NCBI RefSeq assembly: GCF_000725345.1 | Contig: NZ_CP008852.1 | Span: 3,340,001-3,404,000, forward strand | Reading direction: 5' to 3' | Length of the DNA stretch: 64,000 nucleotides | DNA from: Pelosinus sp. UFO1 | Lineage (GTDB): Bacteria > Bacillota > Negativicutes > DSM-13327 | Part shown: positions 35,817-44,317 of the stretch, one piece after another | Layout: each line of letters begins with the position of its first letter | Position numbering within the stretch: position 1 is the first letter of the stretch | The notes under the pieces: model-generated | Told to the model about the DNA's origin: nothing | Database searches by the model: none | Seen by the model: only the letters and a program-made list of their open reading frames with translations | Translations under genes and position numbers: made by a program

Positions 35817-36635
35817 TTATATATTTTCTTTTAATACATACTTCCTTAAAGCGTATTCCACACCTCTTTCTAAATTGCTTTTAGGGATGATAATATCTGC
35901 ATGCTGCTTTAATTCTGTACTAGCATTTCCCATCCCAATTCCCAATCCCACAGCTCGAAGCATTGCAATATCATTTCCTTCATTTCCAATGGCTAATGCT
36001 TGTGACATAGGAATTCCCAATTCTCGGCAGATAGTACCTAACGCAAGGCCTTTATTTACCTCAACATCCACGATTTCCAACCCCCGTGGTGAATCTTGAA
36101 AAACAGTGACCGCATCCTTCCATTGGCTAAGCTGCTCTTTGGCATACTGAATGCGCTCTGGCTCATCTTGTAAAACAATACGAAAAGGTGCCTCATTCAA
36201 TGTCCTTAGTTGTCCCCTTCCCACGACTGTATAAGGAATATTAAAATTCCTCGAAAATTCAATGGTTTTGGGCGTGGCTTCCTGCACAAAGAACATTTCA
36301 TTACAATACACCTTAATATAGTAACCTTGCTCCTCAAAAAATCTAATAATTTCCTTTGACTTAGCTACGTCGATAGGCCTTCGGGTAATAATCTTTTCCT
36401 TTTTTATATCAGCAACGTAGGCACCACAATGAGTAATCAAGGGTACTTCTATCTTTAACTGACTTGCATAAGGAACCACCGAGCAAAATGATCTGCCCGA
36501 AGCCAATGTAAATATTACGCCTTGCTGCTTAACCTGCTGAATAACCTGGATGGTTTCTTTGGGAATTTGACGTCTATCATGTAACAACGTTCCATCCAAA
36601 TCAATAGCAACTAATTTAACATCTAAATAGTGCAT
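35817..36635 (-). CDS. HAD-superfamily sugar phosphatase (Cof type)
   Basis: 272 aa. HAD motif I is DLDGTLLHD (about residues 12-20), motif II the serine in LASGRSF (about 59-65), motif III a lysine before ALGTICRELGIP, and motif IV GNEGNDIAML (about 218-227). The C2B cap between motifs II and III marks the Cof subfamily, which dephosphorylates sugar phosphates or flavin-related compounds. Specificity cannot be predicted. Standing alone, 105 bases from pepF. Confidence 0.88.
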   Translation of the reverse strand: MHYLDVKLVAIDLDGTLLHDRRQIPKETIQVIQQVKQQGVIFTLASGRSFCSVVPYASQLKIEVPLITHCGAYVADIKKEKIITRRPIDVAKSKEIIRFFEEQGYYIKVYCNEMFFVQEATPKTIEFSRNFNIPYTVVGRGQLRTLNEAPFRIVLQDEPERIQYAKEQLSQWKDAVTVFQDSPRGLEIVDVEVNKGLALGTICRELGIPMSQALAIGNEGNDIAMLRAVGLGIGMGNASTELKQHADIIIPKSNLERGVEYALRKYVLKENI

Positions 36636-36783: not shown

Positions 36784-37503
36784 TTAATTTCCTGACAATG
36801 AAGTAAGTAACTTAGCAACTTTCTTAGGATCGGTTAGACCTGTTGCCTTGTCTACCAGTGCAGTATAAATGTGAGGAATGATGATTTCAGCACCATTTTC
36901 AGCACAAACCTCTACCACCTTGTGAACCGAATGAATATCAATTCCGCCCGTAGGTTCAAATATCCTAATTCCTTGCCGAACAGCCGCTCGTACCATTTCA
37001 GCAACTTCGTCTAATCTTGATTGTCCTTCAATAGGATAAAACTTTACAGAATGTATGCCAATTTCATGTAGTATGGCAGCAGCACCATCGCAGGAGATAC
37101 TATCTTGGAAATTTTGACTTTGTGGTCCTGTACATACAGATACCTTTCCAAGACTTACAGGGCTAATCAACGCATTCACCATTGTATGATCGCTACCGAC
37201 ACCTTTTAATCCTGCTAGGGTATAACCAGCAGCCGGGAACACTTGATTTACATGTACTGGTTTTGTTTTTATAGCCACTTCAGCAACCCGACTCCATTGA
37301 GCAGGATCTCCCGCCCCTAAACCAACAGAAACCGGAATGTTAGCTTGCTGAAATTCTAGAATTTTCTCTATCGCTTCATCATTGGAGTTAAAACTTTTAA
37401 CCATGATTCCAATATATACTTGCCCCTCAGCAGCCTCTACAATGTCCAAGGCATTCTGACGATCCTTAGCTAATAAATTTAAACGAACAGTTACATTTTT
37501 CAT
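36784..37503 (-). CDS. dgaF: 2-dehydro-3-deoxy-6-phosphogluconate-type (KDGP) aldolase, DgaF-like
   Basis: 239 aa from the ATG at 37503, which overlaps the preceding stop codon as TAATG and so is translationally coupled. The sequence (VSVGLGAGDPAQW, HVNQVFPAAGYT, SVKFYPIEGQ, FEPTGGID) matches the KDGP aldolase family linked to glucosaminate use (the TIGR03581 / EF_0839 type). It would split the keto-deoxy acid made by DgaE into pyruvate and glyceraldehyde-3-phosphate. It is the last gene of the operon starting at 44317. Confidence 0.87.
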   Translation of the reverse strand: MKNVTVRLNLLAKDRQNALDIVEAAEGQVYIGIMVKSFNSNDEAIEKILEFQQANIPVSVGLGAGDPAQWSRVAEVAIKTKPVHVNQVFPAAGYTLAGLKGVGSDHTMVNALISPVSLGKVSVCTGPQSQNFQDSISCDGAAAILHEIGIHSVKFYPIEGQSRLDEVAEMVRAAVRQGIRIFEPTGGIDIHSVHKVVEVCAENGAEIIIPHIYTALVDKATGLTDPKKVAKLLTSLSGN

Positions 37504-38624
37504 TATTTTTCTTCCTTCCCCTTGCACTTACTCATGATTTCACGAATACGATTCGCAATTATTTTCTCCTGATCCAATAATAAAGGACGAGGATCAATAT
37601 TGATGATTCCTATGTTGGCATAATAATTCCTAGTATAAATAGCAGGATCGCCTGCTTCTAATTCTTTAGCCAATGTTATCGCGCTGATTCCCGTAATCTT
37701 TTCATCAACTGTAAGTTGCGCTCGATAAATCGCCCGCCCGGCTTCATCCTGCACAAGGGCACCTTTGATACCAGGAACAGCAGCAAGTTCTTGAATCAAC
37801 CAATTCATGCGATCCATTTGTCCTTGTGAATCATCATCTTTCAATTCATATCGTTCCAAGGCTGTCATCAAACCAACAATGGATTCTTTGCCAACCTTCA
37901 TTGCTCTGCCAATTCCTTTATATTGCTTATGACAGGCTTTAATTAAATCCTCTCTACCGCAGATCAACCCTGAAGTTGGACCTTCTAGAGCCTTGCCACC
38001 GCTATAAATGACGATATCAGCACCCTTAGCAATATAACATTTAAAATCTTCTTCTGCTGCTGCATCAACAAGAATAGGAATATTTCTTTCTTTGGCAATA
38101 GCAATCATCGTCTCTAAGGACTGCATCCCTTTTTGTACTGCATGATGAGATTTTATGTAAAATAATGCTGCTGTTTTTTCATTAATTGCTCCAAGAATAT
38201 GGTCTTTCTCCACGTGATTGGCTTGCCCTACCTCTACAACTTTACCACCGCCTAAGGCAATCATCTGGGGAAGAGAAGCACCAAAATGTACAGAATGGCC
38301 CTTCTGAAGAATAATTTCATTTTTTAGACCATCAGTATTAGGTACTCTCTCAACAAGTGCCAAATTTTCGCCAGCAATAACAGCTGCTGTAGCTATCGCA
38401 ATACCTGGCGCAGCCCCAGCAGTAGGGCAGCCATTTTCAGCACCTGTCACTTGTGCAATTTTTTTACCAGCAGCAATCATCAATTCATGAATATCAACAT
38501 AATCCATAGCGGCCGCACTCAAAGCCTGAGCAATCTCGGAATGTACTGCACTAGCTCCTAGTACTGTCATTTTACCACTTGCATTAATTATTTTACGCAA
38601 ACCAAATTTTTGATAAATATTCAT
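37503..38624 (-). CDS. dgaE: D-glucosaminate-6-phosphate ammonia-lyase, DgaE-like
   Basis: 373 aa from an ATG at 38624 behind AGGGGTG; a TTG seven codons upstream is less likely. PLP-dependent SelA-like fold; the cofactor lysine is near residue 211 in YSGGKALEGPTSG, preceded by the PLP-contacting DAAAEED. Relatives convert D-glucosaminate-6-phosphate to 2-keto-3-deoxy-6-phosphogluconate and ammonia, as described for Salmonella DgaE. It sits directly before the aldolase gene. The substrate in this operon might be a related amino-sugar acid. Confidence 0.86.
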   Translation of the reverse strand: MNIYQKFGLRKIINASGKMTVLGASAVHSEIAQALSAAAMDYVDIHELMIAAGKKIAQVTGAENGCPTAGAAPGIAIATAAVIAGENLALVERVPNTDGLKNEIILQKGHSVHFGASLPQMIALGGGKVVEVGQANHVEKDHILGAINEKTAALFYIKSHHAVQKGMQSLETMIAIAKERNIPILVDAAAEEDFKCYIAKGADIVIYSGGKALEGPTSGLICGREDLIKACHKQYKGIGRAMKVGKESIVGLMTALERYELKDDDSQGQMDRMNWLIQELAAVPGIKGALVQDEAGRAIYRAQLTVDEKITGISAITLAKELEAGDPAIYTRNYYANIGIINIDPRPLLLDQEKIIANRIREIMSKCKGKEEK

Positions 38625-38661
38625 TCTTTGCACCCCTAATTTCAAGATAGTCTTTCGCCAT

Positions 38662-39324
38662 CTACTTCGTCAGAATAGGGAAAAAGGCTCCAAGCAGCAT
38701 TGCCCCTAAAATAGCTCCACCCGCAATAGGTTTCTGCCAAACGTAAAATATGGCTGCGCCAATTACTGCACCTAAACCTACGGGAATGGAAGCCATTGTA
38801 GCTGAGATAATAATGAGAGGACCTAAATATCGTCCTGATGCATTACCTGCCCCCATCATAACATCAGCACCGAACGTAGATGAGTTTCCACTGATTGTAA
38901 ATTTACGAATTAACACGATGATCGTTCCAATTATTAAACCAAGTGCCCCACCAGTAGCTAACGCAAGAGGAAAAGACGCCAGCGGAGCTGTTACTCCCAT
39001 ACCAAGCAGCATAGCAGGAACACCAATTCCAATCCCCGTCTGCAGTGCACCTCCAATATCCAAAATGCCGACGAGGGGTCCTTCCAAAACTCGAGCAAAG
39101 AGAAAACTTGCGCCAAAGGCTGCCGCTGCACCATATGCACCGGTTTTCAAACCACCTTCCAACATGGCCACAATGGCAATATCATTAAAAGCACCAATAT
39201 GATACACATAATACATATGGGTACCAGAAAATATCCCTGCAGAAAGCATAGCTACAAAGAGAACAAAAGCCCATTCAGAATACCAAAAACCTGTTAATTC
39301 AGTTTGTTTTTCCTGATTCTCCAT
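38662..39324 (-). CDS. DUF4310 membrane protein (EF_0833 type)
   Basis: 220 aa with about six hydrophobic segments rich in glycine and alanine. Recognisable segments: WYSEWAFVLFVAMLSAGIFSG near residues 12-32, AMLEGGLKTGAYGAAAAFG near 53-71 and VMMGAGNASGRYLGPL near 155-170. The DUF4310 family is found only in clusters like this one. I infer that it pairs with the neighbouring DUF4311 as the membrane part of an uptake system. The start is 2 bases after the upstream stop. No function is established. Confidence 0.8.
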   Translation of the reverse strand: MENQEKQTELTGFWYSEWAFVLFVAMLSAGIFSGTHMYYVYHIGAFNDIAIVAMLEGGLKTGAYGAAAAFGASFLFARVLEGPLVGILDIGGALQTGIGIGVPAMLLGMGVTAPLASFPLALATGGALGLIIGTIIVLIRKFTISGNSSTFGADVMMGAGNASGRYLGPLIIISATMASIPVGLGAVIGAAIFYVWQKPIAGGAILGAMLLGAFFPILTK

Positions 39325-39325
39325 T

Positions 39326-40111
39326 CTATTTCACCACCGATCCAAAGATTTTATGGAATTCGATCAATCCTGTTGGTACACCAATATGAAACTCATTTAA
39401 TAATCTGGCATCAAATCCACGGAAGAATCCACTAAATACAAACAATAACACTACGGCTACTACCAAGGTCTTCGTAATATGATTCCAACCGCTTTCATCT
39501 ACACCTTTACCTATTAAAATACCTAAGACAATCCCTGGTACTGCATTTCCCATAACAAGCTGCGACAAGCCTCCCAGAACAGTAGCCCATGTACCGCTCC
39601 TTTGCCCGGCATCAATAGCTGCCATCCAGAAAACGATAGGCATAACTGGATTAATCAGCCAGTTGGCTGCTGGGACTAGTACTTTTGTCGCAATAACTTG
39701 CAATGAAGCCGGAATCGCCACGGCTGTTGAATTCATCACAGTAACTACAACTATGCCAATGGCAGCACCAGCCAAAGCCATTTTTTTTGGATTATGCAAA
39801 GTTTCTTCCACTTTAGGATTTTTAGAAAGCAACGCTGCTGCCGCCCAATTTGGAATAATACGATGTTCTACATCTTGAGTAAAAGCACCAGCACCAACAA
39901 CAGATGCCCAAGAATTAAATAAAAATCCTAAACCAAAAGAGAAATGAGAAATTGGATCACCTTCACATGCATTTAGCTCGCCAAAAGTCCGAAAAGCCCC
40001 CATTCCCTGAACATTTGGTGCATGGAACATTCTAGCAGCACCTGCCCCTACGCCGAAACCGACCAAAGCGCCAATAATAATTGACTCGAAAATTATCGTC
40101 ATTGTATCCAT
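39326..40111 (-). CDS. DUF4311 membrane protein (EF_0832 type)
   Basis: 261 aa with several hydrophobic segments (about 8-26, 60-80, 107-125, 130-150, 155-185 and 215-235). Characteristic stretch: GAGAARMFHAPNVQGMGAFR, then TFGELNACEGDPISHFSFG (about 22-60). The family always accompanies DUF4310 and DUF4312. Together with DUF4310 it may form a permease, possibly PTS-like in origin. This is inference from gene content. It is 32 bases downstream of DUF4312. Confidence 0.8.
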   Translation of the reverse strand: MDTMTIIFESIIIGALVGFGVGAGAARMFHAPNVQGMGAFRTFGELNACEGDPISHFSFGLGFLFNSWASVVGAGAFTQDVEHRIIPNWAAAALLSKNPKVEETLHNPKKMALAGAAIGIVVVTVMNSTAVAIPASLQVIATKVLVPAANWLINPVMPIVFWMAAIDAGQRSGTWATVLGGLSQLVMGNAVPGIVLGILIGKGVDESGWNHITKTLVVAVVLLFVFSGFFRGFDARLLNEFHIGVPTGLIEFHKIFGSVVK

Positions 40112-40143
40112 CCGCCTATCCCTCCCTTAATTAATACCAACTA

Positions 40144-40482
40144 TTACTGCATGCGCAGCACTCTTTGCACCGTTGATAATTCTTCATTTCTTTTCTCAAA
40201 CTGAATTTCCGTCATATCAATCATCCTGAGACGAACAGTAATATTAACGGCAATATCATACCTTATCCGTTTACGGGGAAATAAAATGCCTAAAAATTTT
40301 TCAGTATAACTGGTTTCAATAGCAGATACTACTTCAACCTCTTGTGGCTCTATTTGTAAAACGATATTTGAAAAAGTCTTGGCTACCAAGGGCTTAATTT
40401 GAGAAAAAACATCATTAAAAGCTCTTTCTTTGCTCTCACCTGTCCCCCTCAAAGATAACGTATGTTTTAACTCCTTATACAT
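40144..40482 (-). CDS. DUF4312 protein (EF_0831 type)
   Basis: 112 aa, soluble. It begins MYKELKHTLSLRGTGESKERAF and contains a conserved LFPRKRIRYDIAVNITVRLRMID stretch. It overlaps the SFCGS gene by one base, suggesting that the two proteins are made together and interact. No domain of known activity. The pattern of two beta-alpha units could be a ferredoxin-like fold (inference). Confidence 0.78.
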   Translation of the reverse strand: MYKELKHTLSLRGTGESKERAFNDVFSQIKPLVAKTFSNIVLQIEPQEVEVVSAIETSYTEKFLGILFPRKRIRYDIAVNITVRLRMIDMTEIQFEKRNEELSTVQRVLRMQ

Positions 40483-40862
40483 TATTGTACCTCTTTATTT
40501 TTTTCTTGTAATTTTATGTACTCTTCCGTTAGCCTTCGGCCCAGTTCTTCAATATCCATAAAGCCAAAGCCAACCACCTTCTTACCTGCTCGAATGGCTG
40601 TGACACCTGCATCAACAGAACGAAGACCAAATTCAACAGGATAGCCATACTTGGTTTTTGCTGTTATAGCCCCTGCACCACCACTACCACAAAATGAGAT
40701 AGCAAAATCAGCTGCTTCTTTGTGCATAGTATCCGCCACCTTCATATCAGCGGCAACACCAGGAATCAAGATTGGTATACCACCAGCCTGTTCTACACCT
40801 TGCGCTACCTTCTGGCCTTTACCTAAACGATCCCCGATTACCACTCTAACTTTCTTGTCCAT
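40482..40862 (-). CDS. Glycine-rich SFCGS-family protein (EF_0830 type)
   Basis: 126 aa. The defining motif SFCGSGGAGAITAKT lies near residues 56-70, after a beta-alpha-beta start (VRVVIGDRLGKGQKVAQGVE). A cysteine at the start of a glycine-rich loop is also how PTS EIIB proteins of the lactose/galactitol type look (CGTGxxTS), so a phosphocysteine role is imaginable, although unproven. It lies 21 bases after the small PRD gene and overlaps DUF4312. Confidence 0.8.
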   Translation of the reverse strand: MDKKVRVVIGDRLGKGQKVAQGVEQAGGIPILIPGVAADMKVADTMHKEAADFAISFCGSGGAGAITAKTKYGYPVEFGLRSVDAGVTAIRAGKKVVGFGFMDIEELGRRLTEEYIKLQEKNKEVQ

Positions 40863-40883
40863 TCATAAATCCCCTTTCCTATT

Positions 40884-41234
40884 TTAATTACTATTTTTAG
40901 CGGTCTCAAAATGCAAGGCTAATAACACGGTTTCAGTCTCATCATTAAATTCACTATCAATTTTTCGTAATATCTTTCTACTAAGCTCCATCATATTCGA
41001 ACTCACTTGGTCCATTATAAATTGATCTACCGTAGGAAGTCTTTCGCCTTTTTTCACACGCCTAATGGCAGATAGCAAATGAACTCCCATACTTAACCAA
41101 CGTTCCTCAGATATTTCTAGACCAGCTTGTTTTGCATTGATTGCTACCATCTGCAATAATTTTTTAAACTTGGCCATTTCCTCCAGATCCATAGGCATCT
41201 CCAAAGAAATTGTTTTAATAAGTGTATCTATCAT
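40884..41234 (-). CDS. Small stand-alone PRD protein (EF_0829 type)
   Basis: 116 aa consisting of one PTS-regulation-like domain. Possible phosphorylation histidines lie in MGVHLLSAIRR (H52) and LALHFETA (H109). It has no DNA-binding domain. Similar small PRD proteins accompany SFCGS/DUF4312 clusters. Its central part resembles the C-terminal segment of the operon's large regulator (LMLHSLLMVNRL there). It overlaps the amidohydrolase gene by 4 bases (ATGA). Confidence 0.75.
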   Translation of the reverse strand: MIDTLIKTISLEMPMDLEEMAKFKKLLQMVAINAKQAGLEISEERWLSMGVHLLSAIRRVKKGERLPTVDQFIMDQVSSNMMELSRKILRKIDSEFNDETETVLLALHFETAKNSN

Positions 41235-42361
41235 CTACATTTCAATACCTTTCCTGCTTTTATTGTGAATTTAGCTTGGAGCAACTGTCGCCCCTTAAAA
41301 GTCTTATTTTCTGCATCAATAAATTCAAAAACTCCATCTTCTATCGTGAGAATACTAATATCTGCAATTCTCCCTACTTGCAATGAGCCAATTTCATGCT
41401 CCATCCCCAGTATGGAAGCTGGCGCAACAGTGGTTGCTGCAATAACCTCATCCAAGGAAAAATCTAATGCCAAGAATTTTGATAATGTAGTTGTTAAACT
41501 ATATACTGGACCATTAAAGTTAGCCAAGTAAATATCCGTGCTGATTGAATAGGGCTTAATTCCCGCCCTTTGAGCTTTCTGTAATGTTTGTACACTGAAG
41601 CTTGAGTTTCCATGCCCCACATCAAATAAGATTCCACGCTTCAAAGCTTGACGTACCTCAGGAAGTATTTCATCACCTTTAAAAATACCACCTTTTTTAC
41701 CATGAAAAGCATGGGTAAGTACGTCACCGGCATCCAAAACATCCAAGATATCTCCAAGCTCAGGCGGCCCATTACCAATATGGACCATCAGCGGGAGTCC
41801 TACCTCTCGAGATAATGTTTTGGCTATTTTTAAAGGCTCTAAACCGCTATTTCCCAATACCGAACTACTCATTCGTACTTTTATTCCCCGAATGATTGGA
41901 TATTGACCAATCCGTTCAGCTACATTCTCTTTATCCAGCTTAGTAAGGTCACTTAATTCATCCCGCCCAGAGCACAATCCATCACCAGCTATATTAATCC
42001 AAGCTAATACTTGGGTTGTATTCTTTTCAACAACATTTGTAACAAACCTTGGAAACGTTACTGCACCAGCACTTCCTGCATCTACTAGTGTAGTGACCCC
42101 TTGCTGTACTCCGACCAAATCAGCACCAATACCTAGCTCAGCATCATCAGGGAATACATGGGTATGAAGATCAATTAAACCAGGCGTAACCAAAGAACCT
42201 TGGACATCAAGCATGTCTTTTGCACTATTCTCTAACCCAAAATCCTCTGGACAGTGGATACTAAAAATACGACCAGCATCAACAGCAATATCATATTTCC
42301 TATGGATTTTAGAAATAGGATCGATAACCATACCATTTTTTATCAGAAGATCAAAAGCCAT
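41231..42361 (-). CDS. Amidohydrolase/deacetylase family metallohydrolase (EF_0837 type)
   Basis: 376 aa, dihydroorotase-like amidohydrolase. Metal ligands: HTH in GLIDLHTHVFPDD (about residues 63-75), the histidine in LMVHIGNGP near 193, HAFHGKKGG near 217 and an aspartate in STDIYLANF near 279. The family may deacetylate N-acetylated or cyclic amide substrates. Upstream of DgaE/DgaF it might remove an acyl group from an amino-sugar acid before deamination. It is 12 bases downstream of the regulator gene. Confidence 0.84.
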   Translation of the reverse strand: MAFDLLIKNGMVIDPISKIHRKYDIAVDAGRIFSIHCPEDFGLENSAKDMLDVQGSLVTPGLIDLHTHVFPDDAELGIGADLVGVQQGVTTLVDAGSAGAVTFPRFVTNVVEKNTTQVLAWINIAGDGLCSGRDELSDLTKLDKENVAERIGQYPIIRGIKVRMSSSVLGNSGLEPLKIAKTLSREVGLPLMVHIGNGPPELGDILDVLDAGDVLTHAFHGKKGGIFKGDEILPEVRQALKRGILFDVGHGNSSFSVQTLQKAQRAGIKPYSISTDIYLANFNGPVYSLTTTLSKFLALDFSLDEVIAATTVAPASILGMEHEIGSLQVGRIADISILTIEDGVFEFIDAENKTFKGRQLLQAKFTIKAGKVLKCR

Positions 42362-42373
42362 TTCTATACCTCC

Positions 42374-44317
42374 TCACGAAAAATATCGAAGTATTGCACT
42401 AATTTCACTTTTTGGTATACTACGATACTCTTCACCTAGCACATTGATCAATTTACACCGCAGTTCCGCTAATCGCTTACTCTCAGGCTGATCACTATAG
42501 TTAAAATCAACATAGGGAGAGCCAAAGGCCAGCCTGTTTACCATAAGCAAACTATGAAGCATTAAACCAGCGGCTGCTTGCTCAGAAAGATATTCCTTAA
42601 ACTCACTTGTAATTAACATACCAAGTTGAAATCCCTTACTAATGATGTCCTGTGAAATGCTTTCAACAAAAGGTAACTCTGTAACATTAATGTTCCGAAT
42701 CATTAACATAAAGGATTCCGAAAAATCATGTTTTTTTTCTGGAGTCTCCTGGGTATATTCTAATTGGGTACCACATATTTTCTTCAATACCTTATGAATT
42801 GCCACTATATCTCGTTGTGTAAGTATGGAATTGACAACAACAAGGGGGCATTCCGTATTGATGGGCAATACACTAATCACCAAATCAATGGGCTGCATTT
42901 TGAGGACTTGCTCAATTTCAAGCACAGAACAATACCCGAGCACACTCAAACTTTTTATTTCATTTTCCAATCTGGTCTTCAGCAGCCTAGCCGTGCCTCG
43001 TCCTGTACCGCAAACCACAATCGCCCTAAACTGTGACCTCCCATATCTCCTCTCGTATGCTGCTTGGAAGTGAAGGACGATATATGCTAAATCCGGATCT
43101 GTCAAAAACACGCTAATTTCCGCAAATACTTCAGAGCATACTTCTTTTACACATCTAAACATTTCTGGATAGGATTGAATGACTTCTGCTACCAAGGGAT
43201 TCGGATCGATAACGCCATATTCGTATTTTGCTAATTTATCTGTTAAATGGGCAAGCAGACTATCAAATAACTCTGTGTCATCTGTATACGTTACTTTTAA
43301 GCATTGACTCACTTTGCTGATTATTTCTGCAGTTATGCCTGTAACTACTGGTTGTTTATAACCATTATGATGAAGTTCATTATGATACATGCCATTGCCT
43401 AGAGATTGTAACCAGATAAAGCCAATTTCTGTATCAGATATCTCGGTTCCCAAATGATTAGCGAGTGCTGCGCATTCTTCACTGAAAATACTATAAAAAG
43501 GATGCTCTTTTGCTTGTATCGCAACGGTCGTATCGAAAGCGGTAAGACCATTGTTTGTTTTAATCCTTTGAATGACAACACAAAAGCGTATTAGCGCACC
43601 AATCAGCATTCGATCAGAAAGATATTGTTCTCCTACCTTCTTAATGTTTGCAGCAATACGCCCAATCGCTTGGCATACAATTTTCAACTGGTCTTTTTCT
43701 AATAAAAAAGTGGTTATAACGTTACCTACACGAGATGGAAATTCATACTCACGTGCAATACTGTGCAAAATATATGAAATTTCATTACTATTTAAAAAAC
43801 TTTGTACTACATATTCCAGCGCTAACCGACGGTTAACCTCTGAGCTAACTGCACGTATACCATAATGAACCTTTCGTTCCATTTCAATGCGCCAGTTCTG
43901 AAGAAGCCGTTCTACTCTTTGCATATCAGCAACTACTGTATTACGGCTGACTCCCATTTTCTCAGCTAAAAGATTAATGGTAACAAACTTTTCATTAATC
44001 AATAATTCTAATGCAATATACTTGCTTCGTTCCTCTTGATTAAGCAGCAAGGCCACGCCTGCTTCATTATCTAACATACTGCGAATTTTATTGATAGCTG
44101 TAATTTCACCCTCAAGCCATATTCCAAGATTGGGCTTGGATTCTAATTGAACCACTTGTTCCTTTTGTTTTTCTAGCCATAAACGGACATTTTCTAAGTC
44201 ATATTTAATAGTTCGGGTGCTAACATGAAATTCGTCAGCTAAGTCTTTAATTTTAAAGGAGCGTTTTGCATCTATAATTTTTTTTAGTATTTGACGACAA
44301 CGAAAAGTAAGAATAAT
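42374..44317 (-). CDS. BglG/MtlR-type PRD regulator, apparent AUU start
   Basis: About 647 aa. Two N-terminal helix-turn-helices (IKDLADEFHVSTRTIKYDL and INLLAEKMGVSRNTVVADM), two PRD domains, an EIIB-like domain (VVCGTGRGTARLLKTRL) and a C-terminal PRD-like segment (LMLHSLLMVNRL). The shorter reading from GTG 44155 would delete the first helix-turn-helix. The frame is open back to a stop at about 44327, but no ATG, GTG or TTG occurs before 44155. GGGGGGAGAGG directly precedes ATT ATT CTT ACT (44317), where relatives read M-x-L-T. It should activate this operon under PTS control. Confidence 0.8.
   Translation of the reverse strand: MILTFRCRQILKKIIDAKRSFKIKDLADEFHVSTRTIKYDLENVRLWLEKQKEQVVQLESKPNLGIWLEGEITAINKIRSMLDNEAGVALLLNQEERSKYIALELLINEKFVTINLLAEKMGVSRNTVVADMQRVERLLQNWRIEMERKVHYGIRAVSSEVNRRLALEYVVQSFLNSNEISYILHSIAREYEFPSRVGNVITTFLLEKDQLKIVCQAIGRIAANIKKVGEQYLSDRMLIGALIRFCVVIQRIKTNNGLTAFDTTVAIQAKEHPFYSIFSEECAALANHLGTEISDTEIGFIWLQSLGNGMYHNELHHNGYKQPVVTGITAEIISKVSQCLKVTYTDDTELFDSLLAHLTDKLAKYEYGVIDPNPLVAEVIQSYPEMFRCVKEVCSEVFAEISVFLTDPDLAYIVLHFQAAYERRYGRSQFRAIVVCGTGRGTARLLKTRLENEIKSLSVLGYCSVLEIEQVLKMQPIDLVISVLPINTECPLVVVNSILTQRDIVAIHKVLKKICGTQLEYTQETPEKKHDFSESFMLMIRNINVTELPFVESISQDIISKGFQLGMLITSEFKEYLSEQAAAGLMLHSLLMVNRLAFGSPYVDFNYSDQPESKRLAELRCKLINVLGEEYRSIPKSEISAILRYFS

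Follow-up and report, generated by a model that had tools for sequence, protein, structure and literature searches.

The stretch analyzed here, called the window below, comprises 64,000 nucleotides of Pelosinus sp. UFO1 (contig NZ_CP008852.1, positions 3,340,001 to 3,404,000). On its minus strand, from 44317 to 36784, it carries a nine-gene operon of the type that NCBIfam names the EF_0829-EF_0839/AHA_3910-3917 cluster. A preliminary description, made from the letters alone, had reported nine tightly packed genes in this place and order, and this was confirmed: the gaps range from -25 to 37 bases and are, in operon order, 12, -4, 21, -1, 32, 1, 37 and -25, if DgaE starts at the ATG at 38624 and DgaF at the GTG at 37527. 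An alternative DgaF ATG at 37503 would change the last gap to -1. The family names given to all nine genes are backed by Pfam or NCBIfam. The first gene encodes a regulator with helix-turn-helix (HTH) and PRD domains (42374..44317; Pfam PRD 3.1e-24, HTH_11 7.4e-17) and a weak phosphotransferase system (PTS) enzyme IIB (EIIB)-like domain with a CGTGRG loop (PTS_IIB 0.023). It is followed by an EF_0837-type amidohydrolase, or deacetylase-type metallohydrolase (AH; 41231..42361; Pfam Amidohydro_1 1.1e-13), a stand-alone small PRD protein (sPRD; 40884..41234; Pfam PRD 1.3e-7), the SFCGS protein (40482..40862; Pfam PF14272, Gly_rich_SFCGS, 2e-56), DUF4312 (40144..40482; Pfam 2.1e-27) and two polytopic membrane proteins, DUF4311 (39326..40111; Pfam 2.3e-119) and DUF4310 (38662..39324; Pfam 4.1e-102). 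The last two genes encode a DgaE-type pyridoxal phosphate (PLP) ammonia-lyase of 373 residues (37503..38624; Pfam SelA type 8e-19) and a DgaF-type 2-keto-3-deoxygluconate-6-phosphate (KDGP) aldolase (36784..37527; Pfam KDGP_aldolase 1.2e-71). SFCGS, DUF4311, DUF4310 and DgaF pass their curated NCBIfam cut-offs; sPRD, DUF4312 and the amidohydrolase score below those of their curated cluster models. The Pelosinus operon is a member of the cluster, whose families carry no function. The Enterococcus faecalis version of the cluster additionally holds an EIIC, the 6-phospho-N-acetylmuramidase MupG and a sugar kinase. Below, sPRD-SFCGS-DUF4312-DUF4311-DUF4310 is referred to as the module.

The enzymes had been taken to break down an amino-sugar acid. 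The type of pathway stands, and the subfamily models were passed. The amidohydrolase scores 424 bits against PRK09237 (cut-off 371), DgaE 479 bits against TIGR01437 (cut-off 385), and DgaF 241 and 256 bits against PF07071 and TIGR03581 (cut-offs 26.7 and 222). The substrate is a different matter: DgaE and DgaF fall short of their equivalog cut-offs (NF047797, 431 bits against 600; NF047796, 251 bits against 300), so glucosaminate itself is not established. The amidohydrolase is likewise under the cut-off of TIGR03583 (348 bits against 432) and presumably deacylates an amino-sugar acid. In DgaE, His160-His161 and Lys211 are present; all 105 module-type sequences retain the first histidine and the lysine, and 104 retain the second histidine. 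By local motif rather than alignment, these residues are the equivalents of His-162/163 and Lys-217 of Salmonella DgaE, for which excerpts of PMC9529869 report catalytic roles. According to excerpts of PMC4987338 and PMC9529869, Salmonella DgaE and DgaF work on the products of a mannose-family PTS, and the DgaE substrate is a 6-phosphate. The Salmonella DgaABCDEF system and the Pelosinus operon thus both combine the DgaE and DgaF families in one operon under PRD-type control. However, Salmonella DgaABCD are recognizable enzyme II (EII) proteins of the mannose family, whereas here the module stands in their place and the amidohydrolase is extra. In Klebsiella, DgaF and the regulator are separated by a lactonase gene (L208:13504-14658), which fits an aldonic-acid-type substrate. 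The same gap before the PRD regulator holds a clustered 381-residue open reading frame (ORF), presumably also a lactonase, in four Erwinia loci (L076, L081, L082 and L086).

A scan for DUF4311, which is 96% identical between the window and P. fermentans JBW45, gave 80 named loci in Firmicutes, Gammaproteobacteria, Chromobacterium and Streptomyces, in which gene presence was scored with profiles built in this analysis. sPRD, SFCGS, DUF4311 and the amidohydrolase were detected in all 80. DUF4312 was found in 79, the remaining locus carrying an SFCGS-DUF4312 fusion (Providencia stuartii, L034, the one genome with this fusion), and DUF4310 and DgaE in 79 each, with the exception of a locus that stops at a contig end (L012). 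The PRD regulator is present in 74/80 and DgaF in 69/80. This association is not due to chance. Among 299 genomes of the window's phylum, DUF4311 exceeds its cut-off in six, and each of these six belongs to the 10 genomes that have a DgaF-type aldolase (hypergeometric P 2e-10, kinship ignored). The weak DUF4311 matches L008 and L009 and a weak match to the E. coli membrane protein YhfT (L096) lie, by eye, in or beside seemingly unrelated proteins, and the E. coli control genome gave one sub-cut-off DUF4311 signal. The enzymes and the module can be apart: genome G244 has the module and regulator alone (L103) and the amidohydrolase, DgaE and DgaF on a separate contig (L135). The claim that the operon has no recognized transporter was upheld, and none recurs within 5 kb of the 80 loci; the commonest flanking cluster with at least five predicted membrane stretches occurs in seven of them, all Providencia, about 4 kb off. 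In Brevibacillus daliensis, a second AH-sPRD-SFCGS-DUF4312-DUF4311-DUF4310 block without DgaE or DgaF directly precedes the full operon (L015:1-5000). In genome G274, DUF4311 is interrupted by one in-frame TAG (L101:9342-9821; the locus is also L006) and may be a pseudogene or read through; the other operon genes look intact.

The DgaF loci fall into types by the genes around them. We compared the neighborhoods of 71, of which 10 are from genomes of the window's phylum, the window among them, and 61 from a further set. G482, which is below the cut-off, was left out, and two G632 fragments and four shared genomes were counted once. The module occurs without a PfkB or FGGY kinase in 30 loci (13 genus codes), a kinase without the module in 35 (11 genus codes; 32 PfkB, three FGGY only), and both together in one (L140). 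The remaining five lack both, and each of them has EIIA and EIIC genes of Ula type. Genome G466 holds one module-type and one kinase-type locus (L144 and L172). At the level of loci, this exclusion gives a Fisher P of 1e-13, which is overstated because relatedness is ignored. Queries of the GntK, KdgK and DUF1537 types found no kinase in the window; the wider kinase queries found, in the 29 other module loci, a single gene, presumably of DUF1537 type, in L104, where it belongs to a block of its own upstream of the regulator. That block (L104:1331-4688) consists of a permease, a kinase and a third gene, which we take to be KdgT-like, DUF1537-type and PdxA-like, and stands on the same strand as the module operon, 0.5 kb upstream. 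Kinase-type and module-type DgaE do not differ in the catalytic His pair and lysine. The five Ula-type loci (L193-L196 and L198) pair a divergent DgaF with EIIA and EIIC, and with a detected EIIB in one; DgaE and the amidohydrolase were not detected in them. They likewise represent PTS entry into the KDGP aldolase pathway with no kinase found, but by recognized EII parts, of which the module has none. MupG adjoins the amidohydrolase and DgaE together with a sugar kinase in L135, L137, L140, L144, L151 and L205; an EIIC is present in all except L137, which has MurQ and EIIBC (the MurQ and EIIC types are our assignments). These loci point to a link of muropeptide recycling with the DgaE/DgaF pathway.

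A second line of evidence comes from operons that carry their own general PTS proteins. HPr and enzyme I (EI) genes lie directly behind DgaF in L060, a Hungatella metagenome-assembled genome, and in L174 and L197, which are of one genus, and behind a HAD phosphatase gene in L102. In Bartonella, the operon order is sPRD-SFCGS-DUF4312-DUF4311-DUF4310-AH-DgaE-DgaF-regulator, followed by a 671-residue EI that is an HPr-EI fusion (Pfam domains checked in one of two plasmids). EI and HPr thus stand at the operon end in four lineages overall. No recognized EII was present in the stretches read around these operons (in Bartonella, as judged from annotation). EI and HPr are also present in 13/13 module-bearing or yhf-bearing genomes tested, a finding of little weight by itself in this phylum. 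The Bartonella operons, in strains HY406 (L206) and HY761 (L207), are on plasmids of about 55 kb in an alphaproteobacterium and lie next to tssA; in HY761, the repA-parA block next to the operon occurs in two copies of opposite orientation.

The soluble proteins of the module have conserved residues that could carry phosphate. PRD proteins are known as regulators, and the view that those of the operon are PTS-responsive is supported. Of 109 unique sPRD sequences with scores above 30 bits, all have R59, E101 and H108, and 108 have H52, the remaining one showing a gap there. SFCGS has an invariant cysteine, C58, in a glycine-rich loop, and R12, K15, D39, C58 and S60 are kept in 105/105 unique sequences. 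Moreover, sPRD and SFCGS are fused into single genes in two different genera (G274, L006/L101, and G552, L178). Such fused histidine and cysteine proteins resemble the EIIA-EIIB fusions of the classical PTS.

The preliminary description had likened the SFCGS loop to an EIIB site. That SFCGS is an EIIB is not supported; its predicted fold is instead that of ribose-5-phosphate isomerase B (RpiB). The structure was modeled from a relative (L011), whose SFCGS was joined to DUF4312 with the intergenic stop read as glycine (mean predicted local distance difference test [pLDDT] 91, predicted template modeling score [pTM] 0.59; at this pTM the mutual placement of the two domains is not trusted). In the VIA structural comparison, the 21 highest-ranked matches are all of RpiB/LacB type (Z 12.4 to 8.3), headed by RpiB at Z 12.4 and 2.7 A for 116 residues, and response-regulator folds rank next, at Z 8.2 and lower. 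Foldseek places RpiB at 2e-4, and its first 36 matches are nearly all RpiB-type. A profile combining SFCGS with DUF2620, the family of E. coli K-12 YhfU, has RpiB as its best match among solved structures (E 0.002), with RpiB/LacB-type proteins making up 13 of 29 matches; the rest include cytochrome c6 and a nitrogenase chain. In the 299 genomes, this profile found six SFCGS, five DUF2620 and 41 weak places at E <=0.01. Of the 41, 19 were fetched; the matched ORF was RpiB-type in all 19, and these included no third class of SFCGS-like protein. By hhalign, SFCGS and YhfU score 32.1 and 35.5 against an RpiB family profile, above their maxima of 24.1 and 24.6 over a background of 149 proteins; with the single E. 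coli RpiB, the scores are 26.2 for SFCGS and 19.2 for YhfU, the latter under its background maximum. Cys58 aligns to the catalytic Cys66 of E. coli RpiB. RpiB His99, the ring-opening residue, aligns to Ser82 of SFCGS, invariant in 84/84, in a part of the alignment that is uncertain (hhalign probability 33). SFCGS therefore shares with RpiB and LacAB the predicted fold and the cysteine, but is shorter, has serine in place of His99 and is encoded beside PRD and membrane proteins. As for EIIB, Pfam models of that type did not match SFCGS at E up to 1, and GatB, UlaB, the C-terminal part of ManX and the EIIB-like domain of the regulator scored 11.5-14.0 against it, below the background maximum of 24.1. 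Over SFCGS and YhfU together, these four single sequences scored 11.5 to 16.9. No EIIB appeared in the structural listings for SFCGS, which do not thereby exclude unlisted folds. An EIIB fold for SFCGS is not supported: the structural matches are RpiB-type and the EIIB sequences score at background.

The uptake system had been suggested to be possibly PTS-derived. For the membrane proteins we found no support for this: there is no convincing solved fold, and no EIIC scores above control membrane proteins. DUF4311 and DUF4310 are large polytopic proteins of very high conservation, in which many polar residues are invariant; alignments of the module families are shallow because these are so conserved. 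A model was built from the joined chains of a relative (L062), again with the intergenic stop read as glycine. Foldseek gave no match for it at E 0.001 or better, although unlisted families are not thereby excluded, and the best VIA match of the model has a Z of 5.0 over 63 residues. The joined DUF4311/4310 profile matched no PDB sequence better than E 0.19. Against ManY, ManZ, UlaA and one EIIC each of what we take to be the lactose, glucose and fructose types, DUF4311 and DUF4310 reached hhalign scores of 21.7 and 20.7, where 23 control proteins reached 25.5 and 23.0. DUF4312 may be dodecin-like: the listed matches to its part of the L011 model are dodecins, with Z of 7.0-7.8 over 61-67 residues, which is below the guide value of 8 and suggestive only, and the best match of its profile to PDB sequences has an E of 1.5. 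We propose an assembly or scaffold role for it.

The relation of SFCGS to YhfU leads to a second operon family. The SFCGS and DUF2620 profiles match each other weakly in both directions (E 0.012, 0.037 and 0.065), and hhalign joins them at E 4.8e-6 and a probability of 86; in the end-to-end alignment, D39, C58, G61, A65 and G98 are invariant in 41 sequences. In the window's phylum, YhfU is adjacent to the small PRD protein YhfY and the polytopic YhfT in 8/8 loci read. The E. coli run likewise has yhfT next to yhfU, but yhfX, yhfW and php come between these two and yhfY. The first PRD histidine of YhfY is kept in 9/9 sequences and the second in 6/9. A small PRD protein, an SFCGS relative and a polytopic membrane protein are thus common to the yhf run and the module, but the yhf run has a single membrane protein, lacks DUF4312 and has different enzymes (Php, YhfS, YhfW and YhfX). 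In two operon families with different enzymes, a PRD protein thus travels with a cysteine protein of predicted RpiB fold and with a membrane protein, and by its layout the yhf run is a parallel system. We also considered YhfT as a fused DUF4311 and DUF4310, which is plausible by eye. A nine-sequence YhfT profile did not bear this out: it scored 15.4-15.6, under the 23 controls, and there was no Pfam cross-hit. A single E. coli YhfT, however, reached 28.1 over 47 columns against DUF4311, slightly above the control maximum of 25.5, and such a fusion is possible; taken together, Pfam and hhalign gave no convincing relation of YhfT to DUF4311 or DUF4310.

Phosphoryl transfer, transport, substrate phosphorylation, the identity of the substrate, the role of DUF4312 and the order of deacylation and lyase steps are inferred from how the genes are arranged, which residues are conserved and what structures are predicted. 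The resulting reading, on which we are close to evenly divided and which we favor, is that the module is a PTS-energized system for the uptake of an N-acyl amino-sugar acid, such as an N-acylglucosaminate-like compound, and probably acts as a phosphorylating permease. That the module does both uptake and phosphorylation is the simplest reading of DgaE/DgaF loci that mostly have neither kinase nor EII and in some lineages have EI and HPr. Phosphate from phosphoenolpyruvate would pass through EI and HPr to the histidines of sPRD, in an EIIA-like role, and from there to Cys58 of the RpiB-fold SFCGS, in an EIIB-like role. DUF4311 (EIIC-like) and DUF4310 (EIID-like) would form the membrane pathway, the substrate being phosphorylated on entry, and DUF4312 would organize the complex. 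The amidohydrolase would then strip the acyl group, DgaE would remove ammonia and water to give KDGP, and DgaF would cleave this to pyruvate and glyceraldehyde-3-phosphate. The PRD regulator would sense the load on the phosphate chain and control the operon. A distinct, PTS-coupled uptake system had been proposed in the preliminary description; it is retained by inference, while descent of its parts from EIIB and EIIC is not. The comparison of structures and profiles with EIIB or transporter folds, suggested there as a check, came out largely negative, yet the functional idea is kept because of the replacement of kinases, the operon EI and HPr genes, the invariant His and Cys residues, the PRD-SFCGS fusions and the yhf parallel.

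Several observations weigh against this reading. None of the tests run showed homology between a component of the module and a known EII, and the cysteine equivalent to Cys58 is in RpiB a catalytic base rather than a phosphate carrier. The DUF4311/DUF4310 model is helical and of modest confidence (mean pLDDT 71). EI is near the module in only one of the 80 named loci and three of the 29 module-bearing DgaF loci outside the window; the DgaF frame of L197 is broken, and the genome of L102 (G159) has three EI matches. The operon EI and HPr would be dedicated to the module on our reading, but could serve regulation alone. The exchange with kinases is also less firm when descent is considered. A DgaF tree of 91 sequences offers only four independent starred contrasts, in about two of which the kinase runs opposite to the module and in none the same way (p 0.25-1); with relatedness allowed for, there are too few independent pairs for the swap to be significant. 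Kinases and EII genes do occur with the module. PfkB is present in two Paenibacillus loci among the 80 (a set that overlaps the DgaF loci), within an AH-DgaE-DgaF-PfkB block beside the module (L016 and L017); L140 and the E. faecalis locus (L205) combine the module with EIIC, MupG and a sugar kinase; and a PTS EIIC-type gene is in the neighborhood of L011, L053, L064 and L079.

The strongest rival, itself unlikely in our estimate, is that the substrate of the module carries its phosphate before import, as would, for instance, a 6-phosphate of an amino-sugar acid or a fragment of a phospho-glycan, and that the PTS only regulates, with HPr phosphorylating the PRD proteins. SFCGS would then bind or isomerize a phosphorylated open-chain acid in an RpiB-like pocket. 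This accounts for the missing kinase equally well and accords with RpiB-type enzymes, which bind sugar phosphates; the change of His99 to Ser82 also fits, as a ring-opening residue may be dispensable for an open-chain acid, and MupG, a 6-phospho-muramidase, is present in five DgaF loci and the E. faecalis operon. What import of a phosphorylated compound alone leaves unaccounted for is the EI and HPr genes at the operon end in four lineages without a recognized EII nearby, and the direct fusion of PRD to SFCGS.

The lack of PTS homology in DUF4311 and DUF4310, and the kinases near two Paenibacillus loci and in the E. faecalis operon, would suit an ordinary secondary transporter of the free sugar acid, with a kinase elsewhere in the genome and SFCGS and DUF4312 as enzymes or scaffolds of the pathway. 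We regard this as improbable: 30 of the 31 module-bearing DgaF loci have no kinase of the types sought, DUF2620 in yhf accompanies a small PRD protein and a membrane protein among quite different enzymes, and the module can occur without the DgaE/DgaF enzymes alongside (L103). Least credible to us is a membrane-bound, PTS-controlled sensor or enzyme complex that transports nothing. The absence of a recognized transport fold, the PRD-rich operon and the isomerase fold of SFCGS speak for it; however, the 80 loci have no other linked transporter, DUF4311 and DUF4310 are both large and polytopic, with a very high conservation that extends to many invariant polar positions, and the module replaces kinase-bearing arrangements.

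Some features of the locus lie outside these considerations. The regulator frame has no ATG, GTG or TTG that preserves the N-terminal HTH. An ATT codon at 44317 stands behind AAGGGGGGAGAGG, a stretch whose beginning is identical in P. fermentans JBW45 (L010), and on both grounds a rare ATT start at 44317 is likely for the PRD regulator. A candidate terminator lies upstream of the operon, at 44510-44487, from a scan that gave eight in the region against 6.0 expected in shuffled sequence. Downstream of DgaF, after 148 bases and on the same minus strand, is a Cof-type HAD phosphatase gene (35817..36635; Pfam Hydrolase_3 6.2e-57). A HAD gene also follows DgaF in 6/70 other DgaF loci (L100, L101, L102, L104, L170 and L178); the locus of the sister species, L010, has none there, nor does any further named locus. 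We therefore do not count it as a fixed tenth gene; it is possibly an accessory one. In the open-license PMC literature, no paper on the function of DUF4310, DUF4311, DUF4312, SFCGS or yhfTU was found among the matches listed; excerpts of published work place EF0838 and EF0839 in a promoter screen and in transposon-sequencing (Tn-seq) work.

Known PTS permeases belong to a few superfamilies with recognizable EIIA, EIIB and EIIC parts. If the module is a PTS-energized permease, it may represent a separate class, with a lone PRD as EIIA, an RpiB-fold phosphocysteine carrier and the unrelated DUF4311 and DUF4310, with YhfY-YhfU-YhfT as a second branch that has another membrane protein, and able to move between species along with an EI and HPr of its own, of which the Bartonella plasmids would be a case; we hold this wider proposal to be possible but rather doubtful. 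Were the PTS reading true, it would mean that the PTS phosphate chain can couple to transport via wholly different machinery. It would also give a function to seven uncharacterized families, DUF4310, DUF4311, DUF4312, SFCGS, DUF2620, YhfT and the EF_0829-type PRD, and three unexplained E. coli K-12 genes would be among those gaining one.

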